18,595 nt of DNA, taken from NCBI GenBank assembly GCA_004296865.1, contig SCVQ01000485.1, positions 1 to 18,595 of the forward strand, written 5' to 3'. The stretch comes from Nitrospirota bacterium (lineage in GTDB: Bacteria > Nitrospirota > Nitrospiria > Nitrospirales > Nitrospiraceae). Below the pieces are notes generated by a model, which was not told the DNA's origin, did not search any database, and saw only the letters and a program-made list of their open reading frames with translations. A program made the position numbers and the translations under genes. Shown here one piece after another: positions 881 through 15,520 of this stretch; the stretch's first letter is position 1; each line of letters opens with the position of its first letter.

Positions 881-987
881 CCCAGAGCTGATGGCTGATA
901 GCCGATGGCAGACGGCTCATCTAATCATTAGCGGTTCTTGTCTTAGCTCTTACCATCAGCCATAAGCTATCAGCCATTCGCTCGTAG
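881..987. repeat. Intergenic inverted repeat, GCTATCAGCCATCAGC family
   Basis: This lies between the pabC and pabB genes and enters the pabB 3' end. ATGGCTGATAGC at 891-902 is perfectly complementary to GCTATCAGCCAT at 966-977, and a second copy of ATCAGCCAT sits at 955-963. Bases 965-987 match 3726-3748, upstream of atpE, at 21 of 23 positions. The pabB stop codon (970-972) is inside the repeat. Function is unknown. Confidence 0.75.
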
Positions 988-2463
988 TGCTTTGAGGAGC
1001 GCCTCAGCCTTGAAGAGCGTCTCTTCATATTCACGGTCCGGATCGGAGTCTGCGACGATGCCCGCGCCGACCTGCAGGTAGCCGCGTCCTTGTGTCAGGA
1101 GCAGCGAGCGGATCAGGATATTCAGGTCCAGGTCGCCGGACCAACTGAGGTAGCCCATCGAGCCTGTGTAGGGTCCGCGTCGGACCGGCTCCAGTTCCTC
1201 GATGATTTCCATGCACCGGATCTTCGGCACGCCGGTGATCGTGCCCCCCGGGAAGACCGCTCGGATCAGATCGAGCCCGTCGAGGTCGTCCCGCAGGACG
1301 CCGGTGATGTTGGAGACGATGTGGCTGACATGCGAATACCGTTCGATGACCATGAATTCATCGGCGGTCACGGTTCCATAGCGGCATACGCGTCCGAGAT
1401 CGTTTCGCTCCAGGTCGACCAGCATCAGATGCTCGGCCCGTTCTTTGGTGTTGGTCAACAGTTCTTCCGTCAGGCGACGGTCTTCGTCCGCAGTCCGGCC
1501 TCGCGGCCTCGTCCCGGCAATCGGTCTTGTATCCACCCGGCGATCTTGCAATCGCACGAGTCGCTCCGGCGACGAGCTGACCAGGCACAAGTCATCAAAG
1601 GCCAGCAGCCCGGAGAAGGGAGACGGGTTGACCTGTCTCAGCCGGCGATAGAGGGTCAGGCCGATGTCCTCGTGTCGGGTGCCGGGGGCACTGCCGAGGC
1701 CACCGAGGTCAATCGTGAAGCGGTGCGACAGGTTGGCCTGATAGATGTCTCCGGCGTGGATGTAGTCTTGACATTTCCGGACCCGCTCGATGTAGGACTC
1801 GCGGGGTTGGTCCGGCGTGACCGCGAGTCGGTCTCCCGTCCAGGGCGGTTGCGGGTGGCGGGTCGGGACCGAGAGCCTGGCCTCCAATTCAGCCAGGCGA
1901 TCGCAACCTTCGCGATAGAGTTTTTCACGGGGCTCGCCCAAGAGCCGATCCGTCGGAGGGGCATAGATCAAATGAAGCGTGTGGGTCTGGTGGTCGAGCG
2001 CAGCCAGAAGATCGAGGAAGGCGAAGCGGAGGTCCGGGACCTGCAGGTCGTCCACGGCTAGATTGGGCAGGCGTTCGAATTGTCGCACGGCATCGTAGCT
2101 CAGAAACCCTACTGCGCCGCCGAAAAACGGGGGCAGCCCCTCGGGCTTTGGGATGTGGGAAGCGCGGAGCAACGTTGTCAGGGCGGTCCAGGGGGAACCT
2201 TCGGAGGCCGTCGTCCGATCGCGCGTGCGCAGCTCGAATCCGGTCCCTTTTCCCGTCAGTACCAGGTAGGGGTCGCTTCCCAGGAAAGAGTATTGTGCGA
2301 TGGCGTCCCCGCCCTTGCCGCTTTCCAGCAAAAATGAGGGGCGGCCAGGCTGGGCGATCCGGCTGTACAGCTCGACGGGGTCCGCTGCAGGCAACGGCAA
2401 GGAGAGGGCCAACGGCTCGGGGCGTTCTTCAATCAGAAACCTGGCGCGCGAGGGGCGAATCAT
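970..2463 (-). CDS. pabB: Chorismate-utilising enzyme, aminodeoxychorismate synthase component I (PabB) or TrpE-like
   Basis: This 497-residue protein is a complete member of the TrpE/PabB family, which converts chorismate with ammonia from a glutamine amidotransferase partner. Visible are SFLLESG (43-49) with YSFLG (58-62), PIAGTRPRGRT (314-324), ELLTNTKERAEHLMLVDLER (334-353), HIVSNITG (381-388), FPGGTITGVPKIRCMEIIEE (404-423) and GYLSWSGDLDLNI (437-449). FPGGTITG and the SGDLDLNI region look PabB-like, and the class IV aminotransferase downstream supports PabB. The LLES segment, a tryptophan-site motif in TrpE, and PIAGT rather than the PIKGT of E. coli PabB keep anthranilate synthase possible. 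No amidotransferase gene is in the window. The last codons and stop lie in an intergenic repeat. No strong ribosome site precedes the ATG. Confidence 0.85.
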   Translation of the reverse strand: MIRPSRARFLIEERPEPLALSLPLPAADPVELYSRIAQPGRPSFLLESGKGGDAIAQYSFLGSDPYLVLTGKGTGFELRTRDRTTASEGSPWTALTTLLRASHIPKPEGLPPFFGGAVGFLSYDAVRQFERLPNLAVDDLQVPDLRFAFLDLLAALDHQTHTLHLIYAPPTDRLLGEPREKLYREGCDRLAELEARLSVPTRHPQPPWTGDRLAVTPDQPRESYIERVRKCQDYIHAGDIYQANLSHRFTIDLGGLGSAPGTRHEDIGLTLYRRLRQVNPSPFSGLLAFDDLCLVSSSPERLVRLQDRRVDTRPIAGTRPRGRTADEDRRLTEELLTNTKERAEHLMLVDLERNDLGRVCRYGTVTADEFMVIERYSHVSHIVSNITGVLRDDLDGLDLIRAVFPGGTITGVPKIRCMEIIEELEPVRRGPYTGSMGYLSWSGDLDLNILIRSLLLTQGRGYLQVGAGIVADSDPDREYEETLFKAEALLKALRANG

Positions 2464-2552
2464 GCGCTGGTTGTAGCATATTGCGGAAGGGATAGACCAG
2501 CCGAGGGGTGGGGAGAGTCCATTCCGATCGGTTGAGGGGCGATCTGTTCAGC

Positions 2553-2582
2553 TTGACATTGCACCTCGAATTTTGATTGAAT
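2553..2582 (+). promoter_or_regulatory. Candidate sigma70-type promoter for the F0 ATP synthase genes
   Basis: A perfect -35 box TTGACA (2553-2558) is followed after 18 bases by TTGAAT (2577-2582, 4 of 6 matches to TATAAT). It points toward atpI in the region between divergent pabB and atpI. The predicted start is near 2589, giving a leader of about 50 bases. Confidence 0.5.
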
Positions 2583-2638
2583 GCGCCGCCGTGCTTGGCG
2601 GCGCGCCGATTGTCCGTTTGCGAGCTGCTGAGGTTCCT

Positions 2639-2854
2639 ATGCCGCCCTCGACCGATCCGTTTTATGCGGGCTTGGGGCAGGCGGTCCGGATCGGGACCGA
2701 AATGCTCGCGGCCCTGATCGTGGGGGGTGGGTTGGGCTGGCTGGTGGATACCTACCTGTTTGCATCAGGACCCTGGGGCATGGTGGTGGGGTTGGTCCTG
2801 GGTGTGACGGCCGGGATCAGGAACGCCTATCGAATGGCCCAGCAATGGAAGTAG
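2639..2854 (+). CDS. AtpI/AtpZ-like ATP synthase accessory protein
   Basis: A 71-residue membrane protein of the ATPase_gene1 (AtpI/AtpZ) type, thought to help c-ring assembly or Mg2+ supply for F-type ATP synthase. Two hydrophobic helices are visible: AALIVGGGLGWLVDTYLF and, after a GPWG turn, GMVVGLVLGVTAGI, ending in NAYRMAQQWK. I place the start at ATG 2639, with GAGG at 2630-2633. The frame is open further up to a TTG at 2573, but that overlaps the candidate promoter -10 box and adds residues unlike the family. Its position directly ahead of atpB is the usual one. A 113-base gap follows, holding only short GC-rich dyads. Confidence 0.75.
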   Translation: MPPSTDPFYAGLGQAVRIGTEMLAALIVGGGLGWLVDTYLFASGPWGMVVGLVLGVTAGIRNAYRMAQQWK

Positions 2855-2967
2855 TGGAGGGATGGGAACCGGTCCCGTGCTCGCGCCACGCGCGGCCTCA
2901 GAAGGCCCTCGTTGGACGCGCGCAGTTCGACCCGGCTCCACTCCTCCGGTGGTGAAAGGTAACAATC

Positions 2968-3714
2968 GTGGAAAACCCTCTACACCCGTTCGAGTTGCAC
3001 CAGCTTGTGCAGCTGTCCTTGTTCGGCGTGGACATTTCCCTGAACAAGGCCGTGCTCATGATGTGGGTGGTCGTCGGGCTGGCCGCGACCCTCTTGGTTC
3101 TGGGCGGCGCCTCGCGCCGGCTTGTCCCCACCAAACTTCAGAGTCTGGCCGAGCTGCTGGTGGAGTTCATCCGCGGGATCATCATCGACACGATGGGGCA
3201 GGACGGCATCAGGTTTTTCCCATTGGTGGCGACGCTGTTCGTGTTCATCCTGTTCAGCAACCTCCTGGGCCTGATCCCCGGTTCCTATACCGTCACCAGC
3301 CAGATCGCCGTGACCGGCGCGTTTGCCTTGATGGTCTACGGGTTGAGCATCGTCCTGGGTTTCCTGCTGCATGGCGTCAAGTTTTTCGGCATTCTGATCC
3401 CGCCGGGGACTCCGGGCTGGCTGCTGCCCCTCATGATGCCGATTGAATTGATCAGCCAACTGGCCAGGCCGATTTCGCTGGCCGTCCGGCTGTTTGCCAA
3501 CATGACGGCCGGGCACGTCATCCTGGGCGTGCTGTTCGGGTTGGCCATCACCGGCGGGGCCCTGATCGGCTGGCTGCCGTTTGCGTTTACGATCGCCATG
3601 AACGCGCTGGAGGTCGGCATCGCCTTCATCCAGGCCTATATTTTTACGGTGCTGACCTGCGTCTACCTGGGAGACGCCGTGCACCTGCACGGACACGAAG
3701 CACACGCGCATTAG
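2968..3714 (+). CDS. atpB: F0F1 ATP synthase subunit a
   Basis: Subunit a (248 residues) forms the proton half-channels beside the c-ring in the inner membrane. The family signature SLAVRLFANMTAGH (170-183) carries the essential arginine R174. Several hydrophobic helices are visible (about 28-46, 84-104, 112-134, 184-200, 203-235). Before the last helix, NALEVGIAFIQAYIF (212-226) holds the conserved Glu and Gln of the channel. The start is GTG 2968 with AAAGG about 8 bases upstream. The C-terminus is His-rich (HLHGHEAHAH, 239-248), an unusual tail that might bind metal or be neutral. It is second in the atpI-B-E-F block; its stop is followed within a few bases by an intergenic repeat. Confidence 0.95.
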   Translation: MENPLHPFELHQLVQLSLFGVDISLNKAVLMMWVVVGLAATLLVLGGASRRLVPTKLQSLAELLVEFIRGIIIDTMGQDGIRFFPLVATLFVFILFSNLLGLIPGSYTVTSQIAVTGAFALMVYGLSIVLGFLLHGVKFFGILIPPGTPGWLLPLMMPIELISQLARPISLAVRLFANMTAGHVILGVLFGLAITGGALIGWLPFAFTIAMNALEVGIAFIQAYIFTVLTCVYLGDAVHLHGHEAHAH

Positions 3715-3715
3715 A

Positions 3716-3752
3716 AAGAGCCATCAGCTATCAGCCATCAGCTCGTAGCTAT
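3716..3752. repeat. Intergenic repeat, GCTATCAGCCATCAGC family
   Basis: It fills most of the 59-base gap between atpB and atpE. The words CCATCAGC, GCTATCAGCC and CATCAGCTCGTAGCTA run in tandem with a rough period of 7-8 bases. Bases 3726-3748 match 965-987 at 21 of 23 positions. The atpE ribosome site (3755-3766) starts directly after it. Confidence 0.7.
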
Positions 3753-3773
3753 TCAAGGGAGGAAAGGACGAAC

Positions 3774-4004
3774 ATGGATTCTGCAGCGGCGGCATTGTTG
3801 GGCATGGGATTGGCGGCGGCCGGGTTTGCCGGCGCCGGCGTGGGGATCGGCTACATTTTCGGCAAGATGATCGAGGCGGTCGCGCGCCAGCCGGAGGCCG
3901 AGGGGCGGGTCAGCAAGTACATGTGGATCGGCTTCGCGCTGGTGGAGGCGATCGCGCTGTACGGGCTGGTCATCGCGTTCATCATCATGGGCCTCCGGAA
4001 GTAG
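3774..4004 (+). CDS. atpE: F0F1 ATP synthase subunit c
   Basis: This 76-residue hairpin protein forms the rotor ring of ATP synthase. Helix 1 is Gly/Ala-rich (about 5-30), the polar loop is ARQPEAEG (37-44) and helix 2 spans about 50-73. The ion-binding carboxylate is E58 in FALVEAIALYG. Against the Na+-binding pattern of Ilyobacter-type c subunits, the Gln of helix 1 is Ile here (I25) and the Ser/Thr after the Glu are Ala/Ile (A59, I60), so I infer a proton-type ring. A strong ribosome site, AAGGGAGGAAAGG at 3755-3767, precedes ATG 3774, fitting the high copy number of this subunit. Confidence 0.95.
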   Translation: MDSAAAALLGMGLAAAGFAGAGVGIGYIFGKMIEAVARQPEAEGRVSKYMWIGFALVEAIALYGLVIAFIIMGLRK

Positions 4005-4023
4005 TGGAGAGTTGCTAGCGCTT

Positions 4024-4068
4024 GGTTTTGAGTTTCAACTCGACACTCAAAACTCGACACTCAAAACT
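4024..4068. repeat. Short tandem and inverted repeat, ACTCAAAACTC family
   Basis: It lies in the 74-base gap between atpE and atpF. A 14-base unit, ACTCGACACTCAAA, occurs at 4038-4051 and 4052-4065 and starts a third copy (4066-4068). TTTTGAGT at 4026-4033 is complementary to ACTCAAAA at 4045-4052 and 4059-4066. The same words recur at 5467-5541. Confidence 0.75.
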
Positions 4069-4078
4069 AGGAAGAGTC

Positions 4079-4588
4079 ATGCCACAATTTGAAACACACT
4101 TTTTCTCGTCGTTGATTTTCTGGGAGGTCGTCTCCTTCGGCATCCTGTTGTGGGTGTTGTGGAAGTTTGCCTTCCCGCCGATCCTGGAGACCCTGGAGAC
4201 GCGGGAGCGGAAGATCCGGGAGAGCCTGGAGCAGGCCGATCGACACCGCGCGGAAGCGGAACGCAAGATGCAGGAGTATGAGCTCAAGCTGAGCGCCGCA
4301 GCCAAGGAGGCCGAAACCGTGCTGGCCCAGGCAAAAGAGCGGGCGCAACGATTGCTCGAGGAAAACGAGCAGCGTCTGCAGGCCGAGGCCGACCGGATTA
4401 AGGGCGACGCGCACCGCGAGATCGAACACGAGCGCCGCAAGGCGGTCCAGGACATCCGTAACCAGGCGACCGATCTAGCGTTGTTGGTGGCGGAAAAGGT
4501 AGTGGGGCGGAGCCTTAGCGATGCCGACCATCGCCGGCTGGCCGACGAGGCCTTGCAGGCCGTGGCAGAGAACTACCGCAAGGGGTGA
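4079..4588 (+). CDS. atpF: F0F1 ATP synthase subunit b
   Basis: Subunit b (169 residues from ATG 4079) is the peripheral stalk that holds F1 to subunit a. The N-terminus has one membrane helix (about FFSSLIFWEVVSFGILLWVL) followed by WKFAFPPILETLETRERKI, the family hallmark, and a long charged coiled coil rich in Glu, Arg, Lys and Ala to near residue 140. It ends with DLALLVAEKVVGRSL. The frame is open upstream to 4022, but that stretch is translated from the repeat at 4024-4068, so I use ATG 4079 with AGGAAGAG just before it. Its TGA stop (4586-4588) is part of an inverted repeat. No atpH, A, G, D or C follows; the next gene is convergent. Confidence 0.93.
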   Translation: MPQFETHFFSSLIFWEVVSFGILLWVLWKFAFPPILETLETRERKIRESLEQADRHRAEAERKMQEYELKLSAAAKEAETVLAQAKERAQRLLEENEQRLQAEADRIKGDAHREIEHERRKAVQDIRNQATDLALLVAEKVVGRSLSDADHRRLADEALQAVAENYRKG

Positions 4589-4647
4589 GGCGTGAGGCGA
4601 ATTTTTCAGAGCGCGTAACCCCTTACGTCTTACCTTTCACGCCTCAC
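4585..4647. repeat. Inverted repeat between convergent atpF and larE
   Basis: GTGAGGCGTGA (4585-4595) and TCACGCCTCAC (4637-4647) are perfect 11-base complements with 41 bases between. The stop codons of both converging genes, atpF (4586-4588) and larE (4644-4646 on the minus strand), are the TGA words of the two arms. The interior holds the related words CTTACGTCTTACC. It may act as a two-way terminator, but there is no long T-run, so this is weak inference. Confidence 0.7.
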
Positions 4648-5441
4648 GTCTTGTTCCCACCGCCCCGTCGATAGCCGTCCAGGTCCAGCGTCACGAAGCG
4701 AAAGCCCAGCGCCTTCAAGGCGGCGGTGACCCGCGCCCGCCGTTCCTCGTCGAGCATCGCGGGGAGTTCCTGCCCCGCGACTTCGATCCTGGCCACCTCG
4801 CCGTGGTCCCGCACACGGAATTGCCTGAGCCCTTCCCGAAACAGTGCGGCCTCAGCCCGCTCGATACGACTCAGCTTGGCCTGCGTGATGGCGACTCCGC
4901 GTGGAATGCGTGACGAGAGGCAGGCCGCGGCCGGCTTGTCCCAGTTCGACAGGCCCAGCGTCTTGGCCAGTGTGCGAACCTCCTCCTTGGAGAGCGCCGC
5001 TTCTACGAGTGGACTGCGGACCCCCCACTCCTTGGCCGCTGTCATTCCAGGCCGGTCATCCCCCAGGTCATCCAGGTTGGTCCCATCCACCATGGCGCCG
5101 ATCTTGAGGTCTCGTTGCAGCTGCGCCAGCCCCTGGTAGAGGTCCGTCTTGCAGTGGTAACAGCGATCCGCCTCGTTGCGCACGAAGTCCGGACTTGCCA
5201 GTTGGTTCGTGTCGACGATCAGGTGGTGGGCGCCGACTTGGGCTGCGACGCGGCGGGCGGTCTCCAGTTCGATTTCGGGGAAAGTGGGGGAGACGGCCGT
5301 GACGGCGATGGCCTTGGGCCCCAGGGCATCGTGCGCGACTTTCATCACCAGCGTGCTGTCGATGCCGCCCGAATAGGCGACCAGGACTGACCCAAGCTCC
5401 TTAAACAGTTGGGTCATCCTTTGCAATTTCACGTCCAGCAT
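4644..5441 (-). CDS. larE: ATP-dependent sulfur transferase LarE
   Basis: LarE makes the sulfur groups of the nickel-pincer nucleotide cofactor, first identified in lactate racemase. The 265-residue protein has the PP-loop SGGIDS (24-29) for ATP activation, RCYHCKTDLY (93-102), DGTNLDDLGDDRPG (119-132) and KPAAACLSSRIPRG (169-182). C174 lines up with the cysteine that in Lactobacillus LarE gives up its sulfur, so I infer a sacrificial type; a cluster-binding type cannot be excluded. The start is ATG 5441 with GGGAG about 7 bases upstream; an in-frame extension to 5516 is translated from the repeat 5467-5541. No larA, larB or larC is visible, so the client enzyme is unknown. The stop lies in the repeat shared with atpF. 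Confidence 0.88.
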   Translation of the reverse strand: MLDVKLQRMTQLFKELGSVLVAYSGGIDSTLVMKVAHDALGPKAIAVTAVSPTFPEIELETARRVAAQVGAHHLIVDTNQLASPDFVRNEADRCYHCKTDLYQGLAQLQRDLKIGAMVDGTNLDDLGDDRPGMTAAKEWGVRSPLVEAALSKEEVRTLAKTLGLSNWDKPAAACLSSRIPRGVAITQAKLSRIERAEAALFREGLRQFRVRDHGEVARIEVAGQELPAMLDEERRARVTAALKALGFRFVTLDLDGYRRGGGNKT

Positions 5442-5466
5442 GGCCAACTCCCAGCGGGCAGCACGG

Positions 5467-5541
5467 GTGAGTGTTGAGTGTTCAGTTGAGTCAAAAACTA
5501 AGAACTCAACACTCACAACTCAAAACTGTTGAGTTGTGAGT
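5467..5541. repeat. Two overlapping perfect inverted repeats, ACTCAACACTC family
   Basis: GTGAGTGTTGAGT (5467-5479) pairs perfectly with ACTCAACACTCAC (5504-5516). ACTCACAACTCAA (5511-5523) pairs perfectly with TTGAGTTGTGAGT (5529-5541), with a 5-base loop. The two 13-base-pair stems share bases 5511-5516, so they cannot both form fully. The block lies between the inactive M16 gene and larE on the minus strand and contains the M16 stop codon (5520-5522). Confidence 0.8.
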
Positions 5542-6866
5542 TTCGCCTTGGCCAAGTTGCCGACGACGACGAGGGCGTAGCGGTCAGGATGCAGGTATTG
5601 TGTGGCGACCCGCAGGACGTCTTCTTTGGTGACCCGCTCGATCCAGCGCGGGTACTGGGTGAAATAGTCGAACCCCAGCCCATAGAATTCCACCTGGCTC
5701 AGGATGTCGGCCAGCTTCGCGGTGGTCTCGAGGCGGAGCGGGAAGCTGCCCATGATATAGGCCTTGGCGTCGGCCAGTTCCTCGTCCGTGACCGGCGCCT
5801 CCCGCATGCCGTTCAGCTCCTTCAGGACGCCGGAGATAGCCTGGTTGGCCGTTTCGTTGCGGGTCTGCAGGCTCACAAAGAAAGTCCCCGGCATCAAGCG
5901 GGCGTCGAAGGCGCTGCCCACGCTGTAGGCCAAGCCTTGGTTGTCGCGGATCGAGTCCATGAGCCGCGAGGAGAAACCGCCGGCGCCCAGGATGTAGTTC
6001 ATGACCGTCACGGCGTAGAAGTCGGGGTTCGTGCGGCTGATCCCCAGGTGTCCCAACATGATGGTGGCTTGGGAGAGGTCCTTGTCGATGAGCTGGACGG
6101 TCGGCTTGTCGACCGGTTGGGGCGTCCCTGCGGTCCGTGCCGGCTGGGGTCCCGCCTTCCATGCCTCGAACTGCGTGGCCACGAGCGTCTTCGCCTGCTC
6201 AATGGTGATGTCTCCCACGATCGCCAGGATGGTCCGGTTCGGCAGGTATTCGCGGGTATAAAATTGTTCCAGGTCGGCCCTGGTGATCGTGGGCAGGCTT
6301 GTCTCGGTGCCGTTCACCGGCCAGCGATAGGGATGTCCGTCGAACACGAGCTGGTTAAAGGCCTTGCCGGCGATGATGTCCGGAGCGTCTTGCTCGCTCT
6401 GGATTTCCCCCAGGAGTTGGGTTTTGACTCGCGCCAGTTCCTTCTCCGGGAAGGCAGGATGCAACAGGACATCGGCCAGGAGGGTCACGCCCAAGTCCGC
6501 GTCCTTCTTCAAGACGCGGGCTGAAACTGTCGTGAAGTCTTCTCCCGCCTTGGCGCCCAGCGCCCCCCCCACGAAGTCGATTTGCTCGGCGATCTGGCCG
6601 GCCGTGCGGGTCGTGGTGCCTTCGTCTAATAGGCTGGCGACAAGATTCGCCAAGCCGGCCTTTCCAGGCGGATCCTGGGCCGAGCCGACCTTGACGAGCG
6701 CATGGAATTGGACGATCGGCAGGTAAGGCTGCTCCAGCACCAGGACGGTCATGCCGTTGGGCGTGGTGAACCGGACCGGCTTGATGTCCGCAGCCTGAAC
6801 GGTTCCGGCAGGCCCCGCAAGGCTCAGGAGCAGAACGAGGGTTGCGAGTAGCGCCGGTGCCGGCAT
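5520..6866 (-). CDS. M16-family peptidase-like protein lacking the zinc site
   Basis: About 448 residues, with a signal peptide (hydrophobic core and TVQA/AD cleavage site near residue 26), so probably periplasmic. The fold is that of M16 (pitrilysin/insulinase) proteins: NGMTVLVLEQ near the start, the C-terminal-domain signature around GGFSSRLMDSIRDNQGLAYSVGSAFD, and a final HPDRYALVVVGN. Where the active family member has HxxEH, this one reads AGLANLVASLLDEGT, with N, A and S in place of H, E and H, so it should not bind catalytic zinc. With the active paralogue upstream this suggests a heterodimer, as in processing-peptidase-like pairs. ATG 6866 overlaps the upstream stop by one base (TGATG); GTG 6869 is an alternative. 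Its final residues LTTQQF and stop come from an intergenic repeat. Confidence 0.88.
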   Translation of the reverse strand: MPAPALLATLVLLLSLAGPAGTVQAADIKPVRFTTPNGMTVLVLEQPYLPIVQFHALVKVGSAQDPPGKAGLANLVASLLDEGTTTRTAGQIAEQIDFVGGALGAKAGEDFTTVSARVLKKDADLGVTLLADVLLHPAFPEKELARVKTQLLGEIQSEQDAPDIIAGKAFNQLVFDGHPYRWPVNGTETSLPTITRADLEQFYTREYLPNRTILAIVGDITIEQAKTLVATQFEAWKAGPQPARTAGTPQPVDKPTVQLIDKDLSQATIMLGHLGISRTNPDFYAVTVMNYILGAGGFSSRLMDSIRDNQGLAYSVGSAFDARLMPGTFFVSLQTRNETANQAISGVLKELNGMREAPVTDEELADAKAYIMGSFPLRLETTAKLADILSQVEFYGLGFDYFTQYPRWIERVTKEDVLRVATQYLHPDRYALVVVGNLAKAKLTTQQF

Positions 6867-8254: not shown

Positions 8255-8255
8255 G

Positions 8256-9362
8256 CTAACAATCGGCTCCCACCGGTGTCAAGGCGACCGGCTCGCGACG
8301 GCGGACCTCGCCGAGTTGGCCGCAGGCTCCGAGCACGTCGCGTCCTTTGCTCTTCCGGATGAACGTGTCCAGCCCGGCTTGCTTTAAGTGTGCTTGGAAA
8401 CGCAGGGCGGTGGCGTCGTCGGGCCGTCGATAGGGGCTGTTGGGGAATTCGTTAAAGGGGATGAGGTTGACTTTGCACGGCAGTCCCCGGAGCAGCTTGG
8501 TCAACCGCTTGGCGTCCTGGTCGGAGTCGTTGACGCCGGCCAGGAGGACGTATTCGAACGTCAATCGTCGGCGCGGCGGGAGCGGATAGGCCCGGCAAGC
8601 AGCCAGCAAGGCGTCCAAGGGATGCAGGCGGTTCACGGCGGGCATGAGCCGGTCGCGCTGTGCGTTGGTCGTGGCGTTCAAGGAGATGGCCAGGTTGACT
8701 CCGAGGGAGGCGATCTCCTTCAAGCGGGAGGCCAGGCCCGCGGTCGAGAGGGTGATGCGGCGTGCTGGAATCCCCAGGCCCCATTCTTCGTTGGTCAGCC
8801 TGGCAATGGCGTCCGAAACGGCGTCCAGGTTTGCGAGCGGTTCTCCCATGCCCATCAGGACGAGGCTGGACAGGCGCTCGTCCGGCTCGAGCCGGTCTTG
8901 GACCACGAGGACCTGCTCCACGATTTCATGGGCCTTGAGGTTCCGCTTGAGGCCCATCTTTCCGGTCAGGCAGAAGTCACAGTCAAGAGTGCAGCCGACT
9001 TGAGTGGACAGGCAGAGCGTGAGCCGACGGCCCTCTGGAATGAGGACGCTCTCAACCAGCAGGCCATCTTCGAGGCGGATCAGAAATTTCCTGGTTCCAT
9101 CCTCCGATCGAATGATCCGGCCGTCCTGGGACCGTCCGACGAGGGCGACGACTTTGAGACAGGCCCGTTCCGCCTTCGAGAGGTCCGTCATCTGCTCGAT
9201 GTCGCGGACACGCTTTTGGTAGAGCCAGCGAAGGAGCTGCTTCGTCCGGTAGCGGGGCCAGCCCAGTCCCAGCACGAACTGCTCGGCGGACGTTTGGTCG
9301 AGGGCCAGGAGGTTCGTCAGGTCCGTACTCGGCGAGGTGTGCGCGTCGTTCACAACAGGCAT
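8256..9362 (-). CDS. rlmN: Dual-specificity 23S rRNA/tRNA adenine C2-methyltransferase RlmN
   Basis: RlmN is a radical SAM enzyme that methylates C2 of A2503 in 23S rRNA and A37 in some tRNAs. The 368-residue protein has the cluster motif CTLDCDFC (C124, C128, C131), the nearby C117 in TLCLSTQVGC, MGMGEPLAN (170-178) and the methyl-carrier C347 in GACGQL. These sit within a few residues of the E. coli positions, so all catalytic cysteines are present. The N-terminal helical part (about 15-80) is the RNA-binding region. ATG 9362 has no strong ribosome site. It heads the minus-strand group rlmN, M16, M16 and is divergent from slt across a 110-base region. Confidence 0.95.
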   Translation of the reverse strand: MPVVNDAHTSPSTDLTNLLALDQTSAEQFVLGLGWPRYRTKQLLRWLYQKRVRDIEQMTDLSKAERACLKVVALVGRSQDGRIIRSEDGTRKFLIRLEDGLLVESVLIPEGRRLTLCLSTQVGCTLDCDFCLTGKMGLKRNLKAHEIVEQVLVVQDRLEPDERLSSLVLMGMGEPLANLDAVSDAIARLTNEEWGLGIPARRITLSTAGLASRLKEIASLGVNLAISLNATTNAQRDRLMPAVNRLHPLDALLAACRAYPLPPRRRLTFEYVLLAGVNDSDQDAKRLTKLLRGLPCKVNLIPFNEFPNSPYRRPDDATALRFQAHLKQAGLDTFIRKSKGRDVLGACGQLGEVRRREPVALTPVGADC

Positions 9363-9391
9363 GGAGAGAGCCTAACACAGCGCGAAATCAC

Positions 9392-9430
9392 ATGACAAGG
9401 CGCTCAGCAGTGGTATACTGAGACCACTGC
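9392..9430 (+). promoter_or_regulatory. Promoter with overlapping operator-like dyad ahead of slt
   Basis: ATGACA (9392-9397, 5 of 6 to TTGACA), 16 bases, then TATACT (9414-9419, 5 of 6 to TATAAT) point toward slt. A perfect 8-base dyad, GCAGTGGT (9407-9414) and ACCACTGC (9423-9430), brackets the -10 box and the expected start site near 9426. This is where a repressor would bind; no regulator is identifiable. A second small dyad, GGGTG/CACCC, lies just downstream at about 9434-9447. Confidence 0.55.
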
Positions 9431-9472
9431 GCGGGTGCTCTCACCCACGTCAAACCCGGATGTTCGTTTGCC

Positions 9473-11731
9473 ATGTGGGTTCGTCGGCGAGTCACTGCCA
9501 TTCTCTTTCTTCTGGTGCCCTGCTTCGTGCTGTCCAGCTCTTCCTATGCGATCAGTGTCATACAGGATCAAGCCGATCTCACCTGCGAGTCGGCGGAGGA
9601 TTGCTATCGGGCGGCGCTCAATCAGACGATGCAGGTGATGCCATCCGGATCTGCGCCGGTTCGGGGCGACCGGGTTCAAGGTGCGATCCAGCGGTTGAAG
9701 GCAGTCCAAGAGCGCCATCCTGGCTCCACCTGGGCCAAGCGGGCCGGCCTGCTGACGGGGTTGCTGTTGGCCGAGCGGGACCCTGGCGATGCGGTCTTTT
9801 ATTTCAGAGTCGCTCAGCGAGATATGCCCCTCCTCGGTGACTATATCCGGCTCTGGATTGCGGAAGCGCTGCTCGCGTTAGGAGATGCCTCACGCGCTGC
9901 CGCTTTGCTGGAAGGTATTCCGGAGGCCGTGCCGGATACGCTCCTTGCCAACCGTGTGGCTTTCCGAGGCGGCGAAGCCTGGTACCGGGCGGACCAATGC
10001 CGGAAGGCGATGGGACTGCTGGAGCGTGCGGTTTCGCTCGACCCGCAGGACCCCGTCGCTCCCTCCGCGTTGTTGCAGTTGGCCGACTGTCAGATGCGTG
10101 ATGCCCGCGTGGCAGACGGTCAGACGACGTTCAAGCAGATCTGGATCCGTTACCCGCAGGCACCGGAAGCGAGCGAGGCCGTGACGCGCCTGACCAGGAG
10201 CTTGGGCGGAGAGACCTGGCGTCCGACGCCGGAGGAACAATACGGACGGGCGTTGGCCTTCTTGAACCTTGCTTTGCATGAGGAGGCCGTGGCCGACATC
10301 CAGAAGTTTCTGGCGGCGGCTCCCGGCCATTCCAAACGCGGGGAGGCGAGGCTGAAGCTGGGGACGGCGCTGGTCAGGCTGAAGCGATATGATCAGGCCC
10401 GGCAGGTGTTTCTGGATTTGGCGGCGGACCATGCGGCGGAGTCCGATGACGCCGCCGTGTGGCTGGCCAGGGTCTATCTCAGGCAGGGAGAGGGCGACAA
10501 GCTGCTCGCCCTGTCCCAGATGTTGTCTCGACTGGCTCTCTCCGAAGAGCAAAAAGCGACGATTCAGATGCTCATGGGCACATGGCTGGAGGACCAGGGA
10601 CGATACGACCAGGCGCTCTCCAAATATCGACAGGCGGCTCAGGCCGGCGAGGGGACCACGCAACGCGCGGACGCGCTGTGGCGCATCGGCTGGCTTCACT
10701 ACCGGACCGGGCATTTTTCCGAAGCACGCGAGACGTTCCAGGACCTGAGCAAAGGCAAGGAAGACGGGCCCTATGCGCCCCAAGCGCTCTACTGGCTGGC
10801 CAGGGCCTCGGAGCGTCAAAAGGACCGCCGGGCCGCCGATCTCTACCTCAAGCTGTGTCGCCAGTATGCCTTTACCTACTATTGCCAGTTGGCGCAATTG
10901 CGAACCGAGTTGCCGGGTTTGGTTCAGGTGTCGGCCGCCGGGGCAGCCCCGGCGGCGGGGACGGCGCCTTCCGAGGGGCGGCCGGCGGTGGTGCAGGATG
11001 TGCACTACTTACGGGCGGTGGAGTTAAAGCTCCTGGGCATGGATCAGGACGCGGCCAGGGAGTTGGCCTCGCTGATCGAGCGCTACGCGCGGGACCGAGC
11101 GGGCCTGATTGAACTCTCGACCCTCCTCAGCGAGGCCGGCGCCTACCACCATGCCCTCCGTCTGGCCCGGCTGCATTTCCGTGAAGGACTTGAACGAGGC
11201 GGCGAATCGGTCCCGCCGGCGCTCTGGAACGTGGCCTATCCGACCGCCTATCTGCCGACGATCCGGGCCCATGCCGGCCCCGTCGTAGATCCCTATCTGG
11301 TGGCGGCGATCATTCGAGAAGAAAGTCAGTACGATGCCCGGGCCGTCTCGCGGGTCGGGGCGGTGGGGCTTATGCAGGTGATGCCAGCCACCGCCCAGGC
11401 AGTTGCGAGGAAGCAGGGCCTCCCCGACATCGGACGGGATGATCTCTTCGATCAGGAGACGAACATCCGGGTGGGGGTGCGTTACATGGAGCAGTTGCTG
11501 CAACAGTTTTCCGGGAATCCCGTGCAGGCCGTTGCAGCGTACAATGCGGGCCCGCCGATTGTGACGACCTGGGTTGCCAAAAACGGGCACCGGGAGCCGG
11601 ATGAATTTGTCGAGCTGATTCCCTATCAGGAAACGCGGCAATATGTGAAACGAGTCCTCCGCAGCTATCGCGAATATCGCCGGCTCGGCGGCAGAGGCTG
11701 CGAGGTTCGCTTCCTTGACAAGGTCTGCTGA
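9473..11731 (+). CDS. slt: Soluble-type lytic murein transglycosylase with TPR-rich N-terminal region
   Basis: A 752-residue periplasmic enzyme that cleaves peptidoglycan glycan strands to form 1,6-anhydro ends. It has a Sec signal peptide (cut near SSSSYA/IS, residue 26), a long helical repeat region (about 65-480) with TPR-like units such as RYDQALSKYRQAAQAGEG, an Ala/Pro-rich linker (486-505), a second helical part, and a C-terminal SLT domain from about 600. Catalytic E617 is in IIREESQYD, followed by RVGAVGLMQVMPATA (627-641) and AAYNAGPP (688-695). The length and order resemble Slt70 with extra repeats. Transcribed from the promoter at 9392-9419; ATG 9473 lacks a clear ribosome site. 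A 113-base gap with a repeat follows. Confidence 0.92.
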   Translation: MWVRRRVTAILFLLVPCFVLSSSSYAISVIQDQADLTCESAEDCYRAALNQTMQVMPSGSAPVRGDRVQGAIQRLKAVQERHPGSTWAKRAGLLTGLLLAERDPGDAVFYFRVAQRDMPLLGDYIRLWIAEALLALGDASRAAALLEGIPEAVPDTLLANRVAFRGGEAWYRADQCRKAMGLLERAVSLDPQDPVAPSALLQLADCQMRDARVADGQTTFKQIWIRYPQAPEASEAVTRLTRSLGGETWRPTPEEQYGRALAFLNLALHEEAVADIQKFLAAAPGHSKRGEARLKLGTALVRLKRYDQARQVFLDLAADHAAESDDAAVWLARVYLRQGEGDKLLALSQMLSRLALSEEQKATIQMLMGTWLEDQGRYDQALSKYRQAAQAGEGTTQRADALWRIGWLHYRTGHFSEARETFQDLSKGKEDGPYAPQALYWLARASERQKDRRAADLYLKLCRQYAFTYYCQLAQLRTELPGLVQVSAAGAAPAAGTAPSEGRPAVVQDVHYLRAVELKLLGMDQDAARELASLIERYARDRAGLIELSTLLSEAGAYHHALRLARLHFREGLERGGESVPPALWNVAYPTAYLPTIRAHAGPVVDPYLVAAIIREESQYDARAVSRVGAVGLMQVMPATAQAVARKQGLPDIGRDDLFDQETNIRVGVRYMEQLLQQFSGNPVQAVAAYNAGPPIVTTWVAKNGHREPDEFVELIPYQETRQYVKRVLRSYREYRRLGGRGCEVRFLDKVC

Positions 11732-11743
11732 TGCCCCTATAAG

Positions 11744-11808
11744 AAGCTATCAGTTGTCAGCTTTCGGCTCTCAGTTCAGAGCTGACCGCTGCAGGCTGAT
11801 GGCTCGTT
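11744..11808. repeat. Degenerate intergenic repeat, GCTATCAG family
   Basis: In the gap between slt and the zapB-like gene, AGCTATCAG (11745-11753), GTCAGC, CTCTCAGTTCAGAGCTGA and GCTGATGGCTCGTT (11795-11808) are variants of the words at 881-987 and 3716-3752. Direct and inverted copies occur, giving an imperfect stem-loop. It is followed by the simple run TTAGTTATTAGTTAATGGTTA. Confidence 0.55.
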
Positions 11809-11844
11809 CGTTAGTTATTAGTTAATGGTTAGGGGAGAGATTCC

Positions 11845-12093
11845 ATGGCATTGGACAAAATGGAGGCCCTGGAAACGCGCGTGCGGGGTTTGGTGGAGAT
11901 GATCCACACGCTGAAACGCGCCAACGCCGCGCTGGAGGAAGAGTTGCGGGGGGCGAGAGAACGTCTGTTGAAGCAGAGCGAATTGGAGCGGCGATGGGAG
12001 GATGAGCGGGCCGGCATCAAGTCCCGGGTTGAAAAGGTCTTGGGCGAACTGGATTTCCTCGAGTGCATGGAAGGCGCATCGTGCGAGGAATAA
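11845..12093 (+). CDS. Small coiled-coil protein, ZapB-like
   Basis: An 82-residue, highly charged protein predicted to be almost all coiled coil: MEALETRVRGLVEMIHTLKR and ANAALEEELRGARERLLKQS, with heptad-spaced hydrophobic residues, then VEKVLGELDFLE. Size, composition and position directly before zapA fit a ZapB-like division factor or DUF904-type protein, which cross-links with ZapA at the Z-ring. Coiled coils have low sequence specificity, so this is mostly context. ATG 11845 has GGGGAGAG just upstream. zapA follows after 63 bases, probably in the same transcript. Confidence 0.7.
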   Translation: MALDKMEALETRVRGLVEMIHTLKRANAALEEELRGARERLLKQSELERRWEDERAGIKSRVEKVLGELDFLECMEGASCEE

Positions 12094-12156
12094 CGAATCG
12101 TACTCCTATGCGCGCCGGCGAGTCGGTGAGCCGGCCGGTCTTGAAGGAGGTGACGC

Positions 12157-12453
12157 GTGACTAAGCCCATCGAGGTGGATATTTTCGGCCAGCGCTATAC
12201 GATCAAAGGCGCGACGGACGAAGCTTATGTGAATCGGGTGGCTGCTTACGTGGACGAGCAGATGCAGCAGTTGTCCAAGGGGATGAAAACCGCCACCCCG
12301 ACCAAGGTGGCGGTGCTGGCGGCCATCAACATTGCGCATCAACTGTTCCAGGCGGAACAGCGTCGAGAGCAGGGCGAGGCCGACGTCGAGCGGCGGGCGG
12401 TCTGCTTGATGGAGTCGATTGAGGAACACTTGCAGCCGGCGAGGAACCGGTAA
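12157..12453 (+). CDS. zapA: Cell division protein ZapA
   Basis: ZapA (98 residues) bundles FtsZ filaments at the division site. The start KPIEVDIFGQRYTIKG, then EAYVNRVAAYVDEQMQQLSK and KVAVLAAINIAHQLFQAE, match the ZapA N-terminal globular domain and the beginning of its coiled-coil tail. The start is GTG 12157, fixed by a full-strength ribosome site, AAGGAGGTGA at 12144-12153. The zapB-like gene is just upstream. A 621-base non-coding stretch follows before rny; in E. coli zapA is likewise followed by the 6S RNA gene. Confidence 0.9.
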   Translation: MTKPIEVDIFGQRYTIKGATDEAYVNRVAAYVDEQMQQLSKGMKTATPTKVAVLAAINIAHQLFQAEQRREQGEADVERRAVCLMESIEEHLQPARNR

Positions 12454-12478
12454 GGAGCCGAGAGGAGATGCGCCAGGC

Positions 12479-12507
12479 TTGCAATGTTTTCGGGTATTTG
12501 ATAGGGT
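12479..12507 (+). promoter_or_regulatory. Weak candidate promoter downstream of zapA
   Basis: TTGCAA (12479-12484), a 17-base spacer, then TAGGGT (12502-12507). The match to sigma70 boxes is modest (4 of 6 and 3 of 6). It would start a transcript near 12514 that covers the structured RNA region. Confidence 0.3.
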
Positions 12508-12650
12508 ACGCGTAACTAAAGAAAGGGCGCCTGAGCAAGGTAAATGTGGGTGAGAGTGCTTGGGTGACGACAATTTAAGAAGCGACAGGACTGACAGGGA
12601 TTGTCCAGTGCGACTGAACGTCATGCACATGCTGGTTCTGATGATCGGGT

Positions 12651-12868
12651 GGTTGAGATTGTTCGGAGTAGGGATGGCGGAGAGGACTGCAGCCCGGGCG
12701 AACGACCAAGGCGATGCAGGGCTTTCTCGCGATAGGCTGGCGGTGGTTTCTCGTTGGATGAGAGGGGGGCCGGGTGATGCGCTCGCGAGGCAGCGGGTCG
12801 TGTCAGGGCTGAACTCGGGTTTCTCTCCCAGCAGGGGTCGTCCGCTGTCCACTCCGTCGGTCTCGTTC
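12651..12868 (+). ncRNA. ssrS: Candidate 6S-like regulatory RNA (approximate ends)
   Basis: The sequence folds on paper into one rod. GAGATT (12655-12660) pairs with GGTCTC (12859-12864), CGGAGT (12664-12669) with ACTCCG (12851-12856), GGA with TCC, GCGGA (12677-12681) with TCCGC (12841-12845), ACGACC (12702-12707) with GGTCGT (12796-12801), CTCGCGA (12726-12732) with TCGCGAG (12783-12789), and TCTC/GAGA closes the tip at 12749-12763. A rod with a central open part, about 200 bases long and just after zapA, is what 6S RNA looks like; 6S binds sigma70 RNA polymerase. The 5' words TTGAGATTGTTCG resemble the E. coli 6S 5' end, CTGAGATGTTCG. Outer stems extend the fold to 12579-12912. The ends are uncertain and the identification is by eye. 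Confidence 0.45.
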
Positions 12869-13074
12869 AGTCGCCGTTCGTTCTAGTCTGCACTGGTCCT
12901 CCGTCGCGCTTCCGCTCTGTCGTCTCCGCGGGATTTCCGGTTCTCTCCGCCTCATACTCTCTGCCCCTTGCCTTGCTGCTGCGGTCGCCCCGGCTCGTTG
13001 CACACAGCCGAGTACGACCACGGTCTGATGCAGCCATTCAATCGTACTTAACGCTAAAAGGGGTGGAGGCCATT

Positions 13075-14640
13075 GTGACAACCATCGCCGTATATGTGAT
13101 CGTAGGCATGCTGGGAGCGCTGGCGGGAGCCGGCGTTGCTGCGGTACTCCGTCGAAGGGCGCTGACGGCCAGCCGGACCCAGGCCGATGACCAGGCCCGC
13201 CAGGTCGTCCAGAGCGCGGAACGGGAAGCGGAGAATCTAGTCAAGGAAGCCAAGCTGGAGGCGAAGGATTTACTATTTCAGACGAAAGCCGAGATTGAGA
13301 AGGAGCAGAAGGAAAAACGCTCGGAACTGACGTCTCAAGAAAGGCGCTTGATCCAACGGGAAGAAAATCTGGACCGCAAGGTCGGCGCCGTCGAAAAACG
13401 CGAGGCCGAGACGCAGAAGCGCGAACAAGCGCTGGCCAGGCGTGAAGAAGCCATTGCGGCCAAGGAGGCGGCTTGCGAACAAGCGGTCAAGGAGCACCGG
13501 CAGGCCTTGGAGCGGGTGGCCGGGATGACGGTCGAGGAAGCCAAGCGGCATCTCCTGAGCGAAATTGAGAGCGAGGCCAGGCTGGATGCGGCCGGGCTTG
13601 CCAAGCGCATTCTCGATGAGGCGAAAGAAAACGCCGAGCGCGAGGCGCGGGAGATCATCGCCCGCTCGATCCAACGGGTGACCAGGGATTATGTGTCCGA
13701 GGCCACGATCTCGGTGGTGCAGATTCCCAACGACAGCATGAAGGGGCGCATCATCGGACGCGAGGGGCGGAACATCCGCGCGATCGAGGCGGCCACAGGC
13801 ATCGACCTGATCATCGACGAAACGCCGGAAGCGGTCATTATTTCCGGCTTCGATCCGCTGCGCCGGGAGATCGCCAAGATTTCTCTGGAGCGGTTGATGC
13901 AAGACGGCCGCATCCATCCCACCCGGATCGAGGAGATCGTCGAGAAGGTCAAGACGGACTTGGACAAGCTGATGATCGAGGAAGCCGAAAAGATCATCTT
14001 CGAGGTGGGGCTGTCGGACTTCAATCCCGAACTGGTCAAGGTCCTGGGCCGGCTGAAATACCGGACCAGTTACGGGCAGAACAATTTGTACCATGCCAGA
14101 GAGGCGGCCTACATCTGCGGCATCATGGCGTCGGAGCTGGGGCTGGACGTGAAACTGGCCAAGCGCGGCGCCCTGCTCCACGACATCGGGAAAGCGGTGA
14201 GCCACGAGGAGGAAGGACCCCACGCGATGTTGGGGGCCGAGATCGCCAAACGCTACGGGGAGTCGGCGAAAGTGGTCAACGCGATCGCCGCGCACCATGA
14301 ACAGGTGGAACCGATCTGCCCGGAGACGGTGCTGGTGGCGGCGGCTGAGGCCCTGTCGGCGGCCAGGCCGGGCGCCAGACGCGAGGCCCTCGAATCCTAC
14401 GTCAAGCGGCTGGAGAAGCTGGAGTCCCTGGCGGTCGGGTTCAAGGGGGTGCAGAAAGCCTATGCGATCCAGGCGGGTCGCGAGATCCGGGTGATCGTCC
14501 GGCAGGAGGAGGTCAGCGACGTGGAATCGTCCCACATTTCTCGTGAGCTGGCCAAGAAAATCCAGGATGAGTTGACCTACCCCGGTCAGATCAAAGTGAC
14601 GGTGATCCGGGAAAGCCGCTTCGTGGATTACGCAAAATAG
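13075..14640 (+). CDS. rny: Ribonuclease Y
   Basis: RNase Y is a membrane-anchored endoribonuclease that starts mRNA decay. From GTG 13075 the protein has 521 residues, close to the usual size. An N-terminal membrane helix (IAVYVIVGMLGALAGAGVAAVL) is followed by RRR, a long charged coiled coil (about 30-190), a KH domain with GREG at 228-231 (KGRIIGREGRNIRAIEAATG), and an HD domain with H369 and D370 in GALLHDIGKA. The C-terminus ends in YPGQIKVTVIRESRFVDYAK, typical of the family. The frame is open upstream to 12973, but GTG 13075 directly follows a ribosome site (GGGGTGGAGG) and puts the membrane helix at the N-terminus. ymdB follows after 97 bases, a pairing often seen with rny. Confidence 0.95.
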   Translation: MTTIAVYVIVGMLGALAGAGVAAVLRRRALTASRTQADDQARQVVQSAEREAENLVKEAKLEAKDLLFQTKAEIEKEQKEKRSELTSQERRLIQREENLDRKVGAVEKREAETQKREQALARREEAIAAKEAACEQAVKEHRQALERVAGMTVEEAKRHLLSEIESEARLDAAGLAKRILDEAKENAEREAREIIARSIQRVTRDYVSEATISVVQIPNDSMKGRIIGREGRNIRAIEAATGIDLIIDETPEAVIISGFDPLRREIAKISLERLMQDGRIHPTRIEEIVEKVKTDLDKLMIEEAEKIIFEVGLSDFNPELVKVLGRLKYRTSYGQNNLYHAREAAYICGIMASELGLDVKLAKRGALLHDIGKAVSHEEEGPHAMLGAEIAKRYGESAKVVNAIAAHHEQVEPICPETVLVAAAEALSAARPGARREALESYVKRLEKLESLAVGFKGVQKAYAIQAGREIRVIVRQEEVSDVESSHISRELAKKIQDELTYPGQIKVTVIRESRFVDYAK

Positions 14641-14650
14641 GAGCGGGCGA

Positions 14651-14730
14651 GGGGCTAGAGGCGATGGGTAATGGGTAGGAAACTCTCGCAGGGTTCTCCG
14701 CCCATAGCCCCTTGTCCATCGCCTATTGCC
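14651..14730. repeat. Intergenic repeat with crossing inverted modules
   Basis: In the 97-base gap between rny and ymdB, GGGGCTA (14651-14657) is complementary to TAGCCCC (14705-14711), and GGCGATGG (14660-14667) to CCATCGCC (14716-14723). GGTAAT (about 14667-14672) nearly matches ATTGCC (14725-14730). The modules keep the same order on both sides, so the pairings cross as in a pseudoknot instead of nesting. Function is unknown. Confidence 0.6.
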
Positions 14731-14737
14731 AGTCTTT

Positions 14738-15520
14738 ATGAAAGTTCTGTTTATCGGCGACATTATGGGGGAACCCGGGCGGCGGGTGATTGCGCGGACG
14801 CTGCACAAGGTGGTGGCGGAGCACGCCGTGGACCTCATGATCGGGAACGGGGAAAATGCGGCCGCGGGGTTCGGGATCACGCCGGAGCTGGCCCACGAAC
14901 TGTTCGAGATGGGGTTGTCGGTGATTACGACCGGCAACCACGCTTGGGACAAAAAGGAAATCCTCGAGTTCATCCCGCATGAACCGCGGTTGTTGCGTCC
15001 GGCGAATTACCCTGACGGCGTGCCGGGCCGCGGCAGCATCGTGGTGGAAACACCCGGAGGCGAGAAGCTTGGAATCCTGCAACTCATGGGGCGGATCTAC
15101 ATGCCGGCCATTCTGGAGTGCCCCTTCCAGGTGGCCCGTCGGGAGATTGCCAGACTGAAACAGGAAACGCGCGCCATCATTGTGGACATGCATGCGGAGG
15201 CGACGTCGGAGAAAATGGCGATGGGGCACTTTCTGGACGGCGAAGTGACAGCGGTCGTCGGGACCCATACGCACGTCCAGACCGCCGACGAGCAGATTCT
15301 TCCCAAAGGCACGGCCTATCTGACGGACATCGGCATGACAGGGCCGGTGCTGTCCGTGATCGGGATCAAGAAGGAATTGGCCATCGAGAAATTTCTCACG
15401 CAGATGCCGCGTCGCTTTGAAGTGGCGTCGGGACCGGCGGTCTTGAGCGCCGTGCTCATCGAACTCGACGGCGTGCTTGGGAAGGCCGTCGCCATCCGGC
15501 GGATCCGGATTCCGGAGTAA
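14738..15520 (+). CDS. ymdB: YmdB-family metallophosphoesterase
   Basis: A 260-residue dinuclear-metal phosphodiesterase of the TIGR00282/YmdB family, which hydrolyses 2',3'-cyclic nucleotides and in Bacillus affects biofilm and RNA turnover. The metal ligands are visible: D8 in FIGDIMGEPGR, E39 and N40 in NGENAAAGFG, N67 and H68 in GNHAWD, H152 in DMHAEATSEK, H177 and H179 in GTHTHVQTAD. Positions match the Bacillus protein within about two residues, so it should be active. The start is ATG 14738 because the product begins MKVLFIGD; an upstream in-frame TTG at 14726 lies at the end of the repeat. No ribosome site is evident. It follows rny and precedes xseA. Confidence 0.93.
   Translation: MKVLFIGDIMGEPGRRVIARTLHKVVAEHAVDLMIGNGENAAAGFGITPELAHELFEMGLSVITTGNHAWDKKEILEFIPHEPRLLRPANYPDGVPGRGSIVVETPGGEKLGILQLMGRIYMPAILECPFQVARREIARLKQETRAIIVDMHAEATSEKMAMGHFLDGEVTAVVGTHTHVQTADEQILPKGTAYLTDIGMTGPVLSVIGIKKELAIEKFLTQMPRRFEVASGPAVLSAVLIELDGVLGKAVAIRRIRIPE

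Follow-up and report, generated by a model that had tools for sequence, protein, structure and literature searches.

Heptamer arrays at the gene junctions of a Nitrospirota contig: candidate gene-boundary elements with exchangeable words

Heptamer repeats have long been noted in bacteria without an agreed function, and an 18,595-nucleotide contig of a Nitrospirota bacterium (SCVQ01000485.1) raises the question of what they might be for: seven of its gene junctions carry arrays of short words in direct and inverted copies. This contig was analysed whole, and we call it the window; it belongs to a 2.71 Mb draft genome (613 contigs, 96% complete). The genes at these junctions include those of a chorismate-binding enzyme, ATP synthase subunits a, c and b, M16 peptidases, RlmN and a lytic transglycosylase with TPRs (larE, zapA, zapB, rny and ymdB, used below for others, are gene names that we presume to apply). 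The initial annotation had described words of a 7–14-base period. The arrays are indeed there, but the period is exactly 7 at all seven junctions (lag-7 autocorrelation, p = 0.002–0.004 against dinucleotide shuffles), 14 being its double; five of them are also assigned 7 or 14 by Tandem Repeats Finder. Fourteen window junctions were given the lag-7 test, very short ones and the last ones of the window being left out, and the other seven have no such signal (p > 0.4). Gene bodies in the window also lack period 7 (2 of 145 genic 90-nucleotide tiles at p ≤ 0.01, about 1.5 being expected). At least four word families can be read by eye, as had been proposed: TCAGCNN, a GCYATNN/ATRGC or CCYATNG kind, ACTCNAN and TCACGNN.

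These arrays are not peculiar to the window. In its genome three successive TCAGCNN units occur at 62 sites and GCTATCAGCCATCAGC, with at most one mismatch, at 19, against none for the reversed control of either; together with the lag-7 results this is the opposite of the lack of intergenic excess that had been named beforehand as telling against junction elements. The window is nevertheless array-richer than average: in 19 arbitrary contigs of the same genome (110 kb, masked contigs dropped) 6 of the 36 junctions of 45–400 nucleotides have lag-7 p ≤ 0.01. Arrays found in this genome without any preset word include TCAGCNN, TCACGCC, GCCATNN/CCYATNG, ACTCNAN, CGTCAAT and others, and one junction has a GTGACNN array. 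Three successive TCAGCNN units are present in 80 of 198 genomes of the phylum, with up to 505 sites per genome, and the dialect varies from genome to genome; the counts for triple TCACGNN and triple TCAGCNN are 89 and 32 in G127, 0 and 505 in G154, 0 and 128 in G006, and 62 and 1 in G125. The reversed control patterns themselves match many sites in G135 (27), G005 (67) and G015 (30), which points to further heptamer words there.

The TCAGCNN arrays often have two inverted arms, TCAGC units followed by a loop and then GCTGA units, and the order of the arms is fixed: 383 matches against 5 in the opposite order among 22 genomes picked for having arrays (overlapping matches included), and 27 against 0 in the window's genome. 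The commonest arm has five units in bacterial hairpins (65 and 79 of 149 from this genome, related and named sequences, two mismatches allowed), where the median loop is 13 nucleotides and a few loops are negative because the arms overlap; in IMG/VR it has four units (94 and 82 of 170 hairpins, one mismatch allowed, identical cores removed and near-identical contigs kept), with a loop of 12. Such hairpins lie in at least 119 stretches of named genomes (80 titles from several phyla, mostly metagenome-assembled genomes), and among the matches listed are Nitrospira, Planctomycetota, Acidobacteria, Deltaproteobacteria, Verrucomicrobia, Omnitrophota, Elusimicrobia, Bacteroidales, Chloroflexi and Cyanobacteria. 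IMG/VR contigs, one of which was checked for its viral nature, hold them in at least 120 stretches against 2 in the opposite order. Three design rules proved not to be general. The two most variable phases are adjacent, giving a 5+2 design, in 83 of 106 TCAGC arrays and in 35 of 79 others, a third being expected (ties, 29 and 47, and five perfect arrays were dropped). The 117 non-TCAGC arm pairs, which include some misfiled TCAGC pairs, divide into 64 purine-first, 51 pyrimidine-first and 2 equal, or into 74 G-first, 42 C-first and 1 equal, so neither order is general.

One virus carries the element throughout. UViG_3300045936_000120 is a tailed phage with terminase, portal, head protease, major head and tape measure genes, and has hairpins (for example at L420, L429 and L430) at 14 of its 44 predicted junctions, which is 14 of the 28 of at least 45 nucleotides, and at 11 of the 19 tandem junctions of that length; 3 of its 21 hairpins lie within predicted genes. 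A contig that might have been a second array-dense phage, UViG_3300045933_000102 (L457, L463), is 99.4–100% identical to it across the shorter contig, and the two were counted once. Cultured phages and plasmids gave no match to one 66-base hairpin query, a weak test for so degenerate a motif. Such a phage, with elements at many of its gene junctions, would make a compact system for tests.

Orthologous junctions of relatives show that the words are exchanged. Of the 59 genomes that gave a match, the 30 best were used for the comparison, the window's own among them (the row of G205 is unreliable, its atpE having been misparsed). The atpE/atpF junction is at least 45 nucleotides long in 27 of the 30, and 14 of these have lag-7 p ≤ 0.01; by eye 21 of the 27 hold arrays, in about eight word groups, two hold an unrelated inverted repeat resembling a miniature inverted-repeat transposable element (MITE), and four could not be assigned. 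The rny/ymdB junction reaches that length in 18 of the 30, with lag-7 p ≤ 0.01 in 11 and, by eye, arrays in 16 (about nine word groups); in eight relatives the two genes overlap by four bases. At atpB/atpE 9 of 17 long junctions pass the same threshold, and 13 of the 30 are short. By eye, periods of 6 and 8 can also be made out at orthologous atpE/atpF and rny/ymdB junctions, and the window's own atpE/atpF junction has a weak lag-6 signal in addition (p = 0.022). Between the window's genome and a close relative, G198, rny is identical at 1261 of 1300 positions and ymdB at 658 of 700, against 53 of 88 in the junction between them, where the array at 14661..14730 is re-spelled; likewise a TCAGC element of G199, which is of the same genus, aligns with the GTGACNN element of the window's genome (L310/L285). 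Elements also persist, since a single TCAGCNN arm at atpB/atpE is common to the window's genome, G199, G209 and G060, the last two from two other genera. The same architecture thus stands with different words at three orthologous junctions, and such exchange, even within the ATP synthase operon, separates architecture from sequence. The suggestion that these are spreading junction elements gains from this as regards spread and turnover, the same junction being occupied, empty or re-spelled in different relatives. The MITE-like repeat is about 140–165 nucleotides long with ends near GCTGCTGAAAACG and CGTTTTGAGCAGC, and stands in junctions where other relatives have arrays: L202 (G060) and L209 (G077) at atpE/atpF, and L200 (G215) and L214 (G211) at atpB/atpE.

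Within junctions, the elements prefer the position just behind a stop codon. At tandem junctions they begin a median of 7 (named genomes, n = 67) or 8 (IMG/VR, n = 102) nucleotides behind the upstream stop, and at the 42 tandem junctions of at least 200 nucleotides 21 elements lie within 30 nucleotides of the stop and 7 within 30 of the start, 4.3 being expected for each (gene calls in these tests are simple picks of open reading frames, ORFs). In four window genes the terminal TGA is part of the array itself: pabB (970–972, minus strand, inside the second arm of the array at 885..983), atpF and the larE-like gene (4586–4588 and 4644–4646, both inside the arrays at 4585..4650) and the M16 gene (5520–5522, inside the array at 5467..5534). 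Among 250 arrays of non-TCAGC words, 107 have stop codons in all three frames of a strand, whereas permuting the order of the columns gives 86.6 ± 5.8 (maximum of 300 trials, 103). The claim that the repeats are limited to junctions stands for the window's genic tiles, and fails for these four stop codons and for some copies in ORFs elsewhere. A strict any-word scan with crude gene calls puts 1 of 4 and 4 of 12 arrays of the window's genome in predicted genes, 5 of 10 in G060, 0 of 2 in G055 and 1 of 14 in G154; the strict lag-7 threshold yields few arrays per sample (4 for the window's genome, 10 for G060, 2 for G055 and 14 for G154). By eye, TCAGC-type arrays seem to lie within ORFs at L009 (about 1492–1531) and L334 (about 1211–1258), in recombinase-like and metal-ATPase-like frames.

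A conserved word with free spacers is a direct sign of selection, and this is the pattern in eight orthologous TCAGC elements of the window's genome and G199: word sites changed at 33 of 322 and spacer sites at 40 of 87 (Fisher p about 1e-12), counts in which pairs are read from both sides and sites are partly counted twice. Counting from the G199 side only gives 29/187 against 25/52, and from the other side only 4/135 against 15/35. One element had been replaced outright and contributed 17 of the 33 word changes; when it is left out the figures are 16/297 and 37/81. Flanks and loops differ at 14% of positions (544/3887). Labelling both sides gives 3/128 against 14/36, a variant of the test that favors conserved words, and the one-sided form was used instead; one of nine pairs, L318/L334, was left out of both because its array is inside an ORF. 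Judged from these alignments, the five-base TCAGC words are conserved between the two species while their spacers drift, which is not neutral behavior.

What, then, are the arrays? The explanation that we favor, though only tentatively, is that they form a widespread class of selected, word-agnostic gene-boundary elements placed behind stop codons. Its basis lies in the period of 7, the place at junctions, the fixed order of the TCAGC arms, the post-stop preference, the conservation of the word, the re-spelled junctions and the occurrence throughout a phage. The element would be a degenerate heptamer array, often with two inverted arms of about four or five units and a loop of about 12 nucleotides, and would act where a transcript or its translation ends, through an imperfect hairpin together with stop codons in all three frames; the latter follow from the unit length, because 7 leaves a remainder of 1 on division by 3. 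Any word would presumably work provided that both arms and all units share it, and new words would arrive through replacement of the whole element. It is possible, but we would not call it likely, that this amounts to a hitherto unrecognized pan-bacterial class in which selection acts on the architecture and the word is a local dialect that can be replaced, phages being included by way of host machinery. That phages infecting array-bearing hosts carry the elements because the host machinery reads them is part of this wider proposal, and is similarly doubtful.

A number of findings weigh against the gene-boundary explanation. The lag-7 signal is weak in the G060 and G154 samples and nil in G055, so many genomes manage without arrays. 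Of the elements placed between genes, 17 of 108 and 15 of 141 are in divergent junctions, with no stop codon near, and TCAGC hairpins lie within ORFs in 3 of 128, 2 of 17 and 13 of 170 cases in three sets. Five of 17 copies inspected by eye in the window's genome are one-armed, as is the atpB/atpE element in all four genomes (three genera) that share it, and the hairpin is therefore not obligatory. Nor does RNA pairing fare well in the wobble and covariation tests, which cover one word family and one group of five sequences. Changes that keep wobble pairing at tandem junctions number 25 against 2 in the first arm and 5 against 25 in the second; being unfavored in the second arm, they indicate that RNA pairing is not the source of the constraint on the word. 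One of 24 pairs is compensated (covariation term +2.68; five species, one atpE/atpF word group), and between opposite arms the spacer bases show no complementarity (60 of 498 in register in the 149 hairpins, 9% expected). Folding reaches p ≤ 0.01 in 3 of 17 atpB/atpE, 10 of 27 atpE/atpF and 10 of 18 rny/ymdB junctions. Of the idea in the initial annotation that the repeats stabilize mRNA ends, the place at gene 3' ends is upheld, and stabilization by RNA pairing finds no favor in the covariation, wobble and fold results. An apparent avoidance of pairing at spacer base 7 in IMG/VR (83 seen, 129 expected) was set aside as it appears at shifted registers too and is probably due to composition; it is weak in the genome_contigs set (z −2.6) and nil in the window's genome (z −0.4). 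Finally, of the positions in the TCAGC word C2 varies most (89 variants) and G4 hardly at all (4), a pattern that resembles the reading of a sequence more than a simple match between the arms.

This last contrast is what one would expect if the words were read by a protein. Under such an explanation five-base words at a 7-bp pitch would bind a putative multivalent protein, on double-stranded DNA or RNA, which might be a transcription roadblock or a nucleoid protein, and the inverted arms would let binding work from both sides. The word is strongly constrained, and its variants, which are position-specific, follow a similar spectrum in the two arms once both are read on the TCAGC strand; the initial annotation's mention of protein-binding sites is to this extent compatible with the sequences. 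There is also a precedent in PimR, which, according to PMC5930380, binds heptameric direct repeats with one monomer per heptamer, the spacers there being 3–4 nucleotides. Against a protein reader, the many words per genome and their swaps at orthologous junctions would require many readers, and we think it an unlikely alternative to the word-agnostic boundary element.

Less probable still is a mobile element of the repetitive extragenic palindrome (REP) or MITE kind, a hairpin that a transposase or some other enzyme copies to new junctions, its conservation reflecting no more than the youth of the copies. It would account for the uneven distribution, in which one genome has as many as 505 sites, for presence, absence and replacement at orthologous sites, for the dense occupation of the phage and for the few copies that do lie within ORFs. 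Yet orthologous copies at fixed sites have kept their word while the spacers drifted, and so are not young. The window's genome has one weak match to Y1_Tnp (1.2e-5) and, at 96% completeness, none to RVT_1, and the array-rich genomes G060, G195, G153 and G077 (83, 78, 41 and 20 TCAGC sites) have no match to either at E ≤ 0.001, these two families being the scope of the search. Neither a RAYT/REP origin nor a telomerase-like or retron-like one can thus be a requirement for arrays.

Neutral simple-sequence repeats arising by polymerase slippage, the usual account of heptamer excess, are already disfavored and we hold them very improbable. Most surveyed genomes have heptamers as their most frequent long repeat unit, for which slippage was proposed (Mrazek 2007, as related in PMC4679880), and adjacent spacers within an arm are slightly more alike than chance (0.159 against 0.09); but slippage predicts neither conserved words with free spacers nor a fixed arm order, modal arm lengths or a post-stop preference. 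A telomerase-like reverse transcriptase that extended broken 3' ends with repeats, the ends then being joined head to head, might leave such arrays as scars, an origin that can be dismissed as barely credible: the inverted geometry would suit it, and DRT10 is a bacterial reverse transcriptase that makes tandem-repeat DNA (PMC12632851), but RVT_1 is missing from the window's genome and from the four array-rich ones named above, and the purine-first order that had prompted the idea failed (64 against 51 non-TCAGC pairs).

The seven arrays of the window differ in build. At 885..983 an ATRGC-type arm (885–915) is followed by an inverted GCYAT/TCAGC-type arm (953–983); Tandem Repeats Finder marks 887–917 and 953–977, and by eye this word family covers 887–983 and, in the last array, 14661–14730. 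Three arrays belong to the ATP synthase genes atpB (2968–3714), atpE (3774–4004) and atpF (4079–4588), all on the plus strand. The atpB/atpE array is the single TCAGCNN arm at 3719..3748, which starts AGCCATCAGCTATCAGCCATCAGC (repeat-finder interval 3719–3742); the atpE/atpF array, at 4025..4068, consists of ACTCNAN units from 4031 to 4068 (interval 4037–4068) with the short inverted stretch TTTTGAGTTT ahead of them; and at 4585..4650, between the convergent atpF and larE-like genes, CGTGAGG (4585–4599) and TCACGCC (4621–4650) arrays are inverted to each other, the TCACGNN words being read throughout 4585–4650 (interval 4581–4599). Inverted TGAGTNT and ACTCNAN arrays occupy 5467..5534 between the larE-like and M16 peptidase genes, both on the minus strand, with the ACTCNAN family read from 5467 and an interval of 5468–5527. 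Between the SLT-TPR gene and the zapB-like gene is a TCAGCNN ... NNGCTGA hairpin (11745..11804, the second place in the window where TCAGCNN is read by eye, from 11745), followed by a TTAGTTA-like stretch, also seen by eye, at 11808–11835. The last, at 14661..14730, is an inverted pair of GATGGGY and CCYATNG arrays between the rny-like (about 13075–14640) and ymdB-like (14739–15520) genes, both on the plus strand.

Other features of the window deserve brief mention. The junction of the zapB-like and zapA-like genes (12094–12156) has a lag-8 signal (p = 0.004), which may mark an 8-base relative of the arrays or be chance among the lags tested. From the zapA-like to the rny-like gene there is a 620-base gap (12454–13074) that matches no Rfam family at gathering score and lacks a lag-7 signal. 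A palindromic stretch, GCGCGGCCTCAGAAGGCCCTCG..GACG, at about 2880–2930 between the atpI-like gene and atpB, is a second kind of intergenic repeat and is found again in another contig of this genome (L036, within 1826–2207). The contig end (18583–18595) reads AGATCGGAAGAGC, which we take to be Illumina adapter and so an assembly artefact.

How do the arrays compare with known elements? The window as a whole has no Rfam match at gathering score, and none of its nine terminator-like sites, with a stem and a T run behind it (14.4 expected), falls on an array. REP sequences, bacterial interspersed mosaic elements (BIMEs) and MITEs are intergenic and palindromic, and a post-stop place is typical of REP; we know of no period of 7 in any of them. 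The arrays share intergenic palindromes with REP and MITE, and their abundance in genomes without Y1_Tnp sets them apart. Short tandemly repeated repetitive (STRR) heptamers of filamentous cyanobacteria comprise several intergenic heptamer words; to our knowledge arms in inverted pairs, a constant word beside free spacers and the exchange of words are not among their features. Among the matches listed, a literature search in which subscription journals are sparsely covered gave nothing on orthologous word exchange, phage junctions or Nitrospira heptamers, and the heptamer terms were not found in PMC2267715, on stem-loop families.

The TAACTGA repeats of Beggiatoaceae, some Cyanobacteria and Bacteroidetes (PMC4679880) are, like the arrays here, intergenic heptamers with a patchy distribution over phyla, and Microcystis has mixtures of heptamers. 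They differ in having an exact heptamer, in being direct (169 direct sets and one indirect in the main genome) and in lying mostly just upstream of start codons, whereas our words vary and prefer the post-stop position, so the arrays do not belong to that class. Heptamers of the STRR or GGGAATC kind come nearer: the unit of 7 and the intergenic concentration are found here, with exceptions in predicted genes, and so are convergent inverted pairs near stop codons, apart from the single-armed copies. GGGAATC repeats of Xanthomonas and GGGGA(C/T)T repeats of Nostoc have been described, the former as convergent, post-stop and degenerate, and discussed as G-quadruplexes (PMC4692102). There is no GGG in the fixed part of TCAGCNN, ACTCNAN or TCACGNN, although some words (for example ATGGGCG) have it, and arrays of this sort cannot in general be explained by G-quadruplexes. 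The convergent GGGAATC repeats of Xanthomonas are the closest known kind; they have one G-rich word family, whereas the arrays described here mostly lack G-runs, use many words in a single genome, exchange these words at orthologous junctions and, in one case, are carried throughout a phage.

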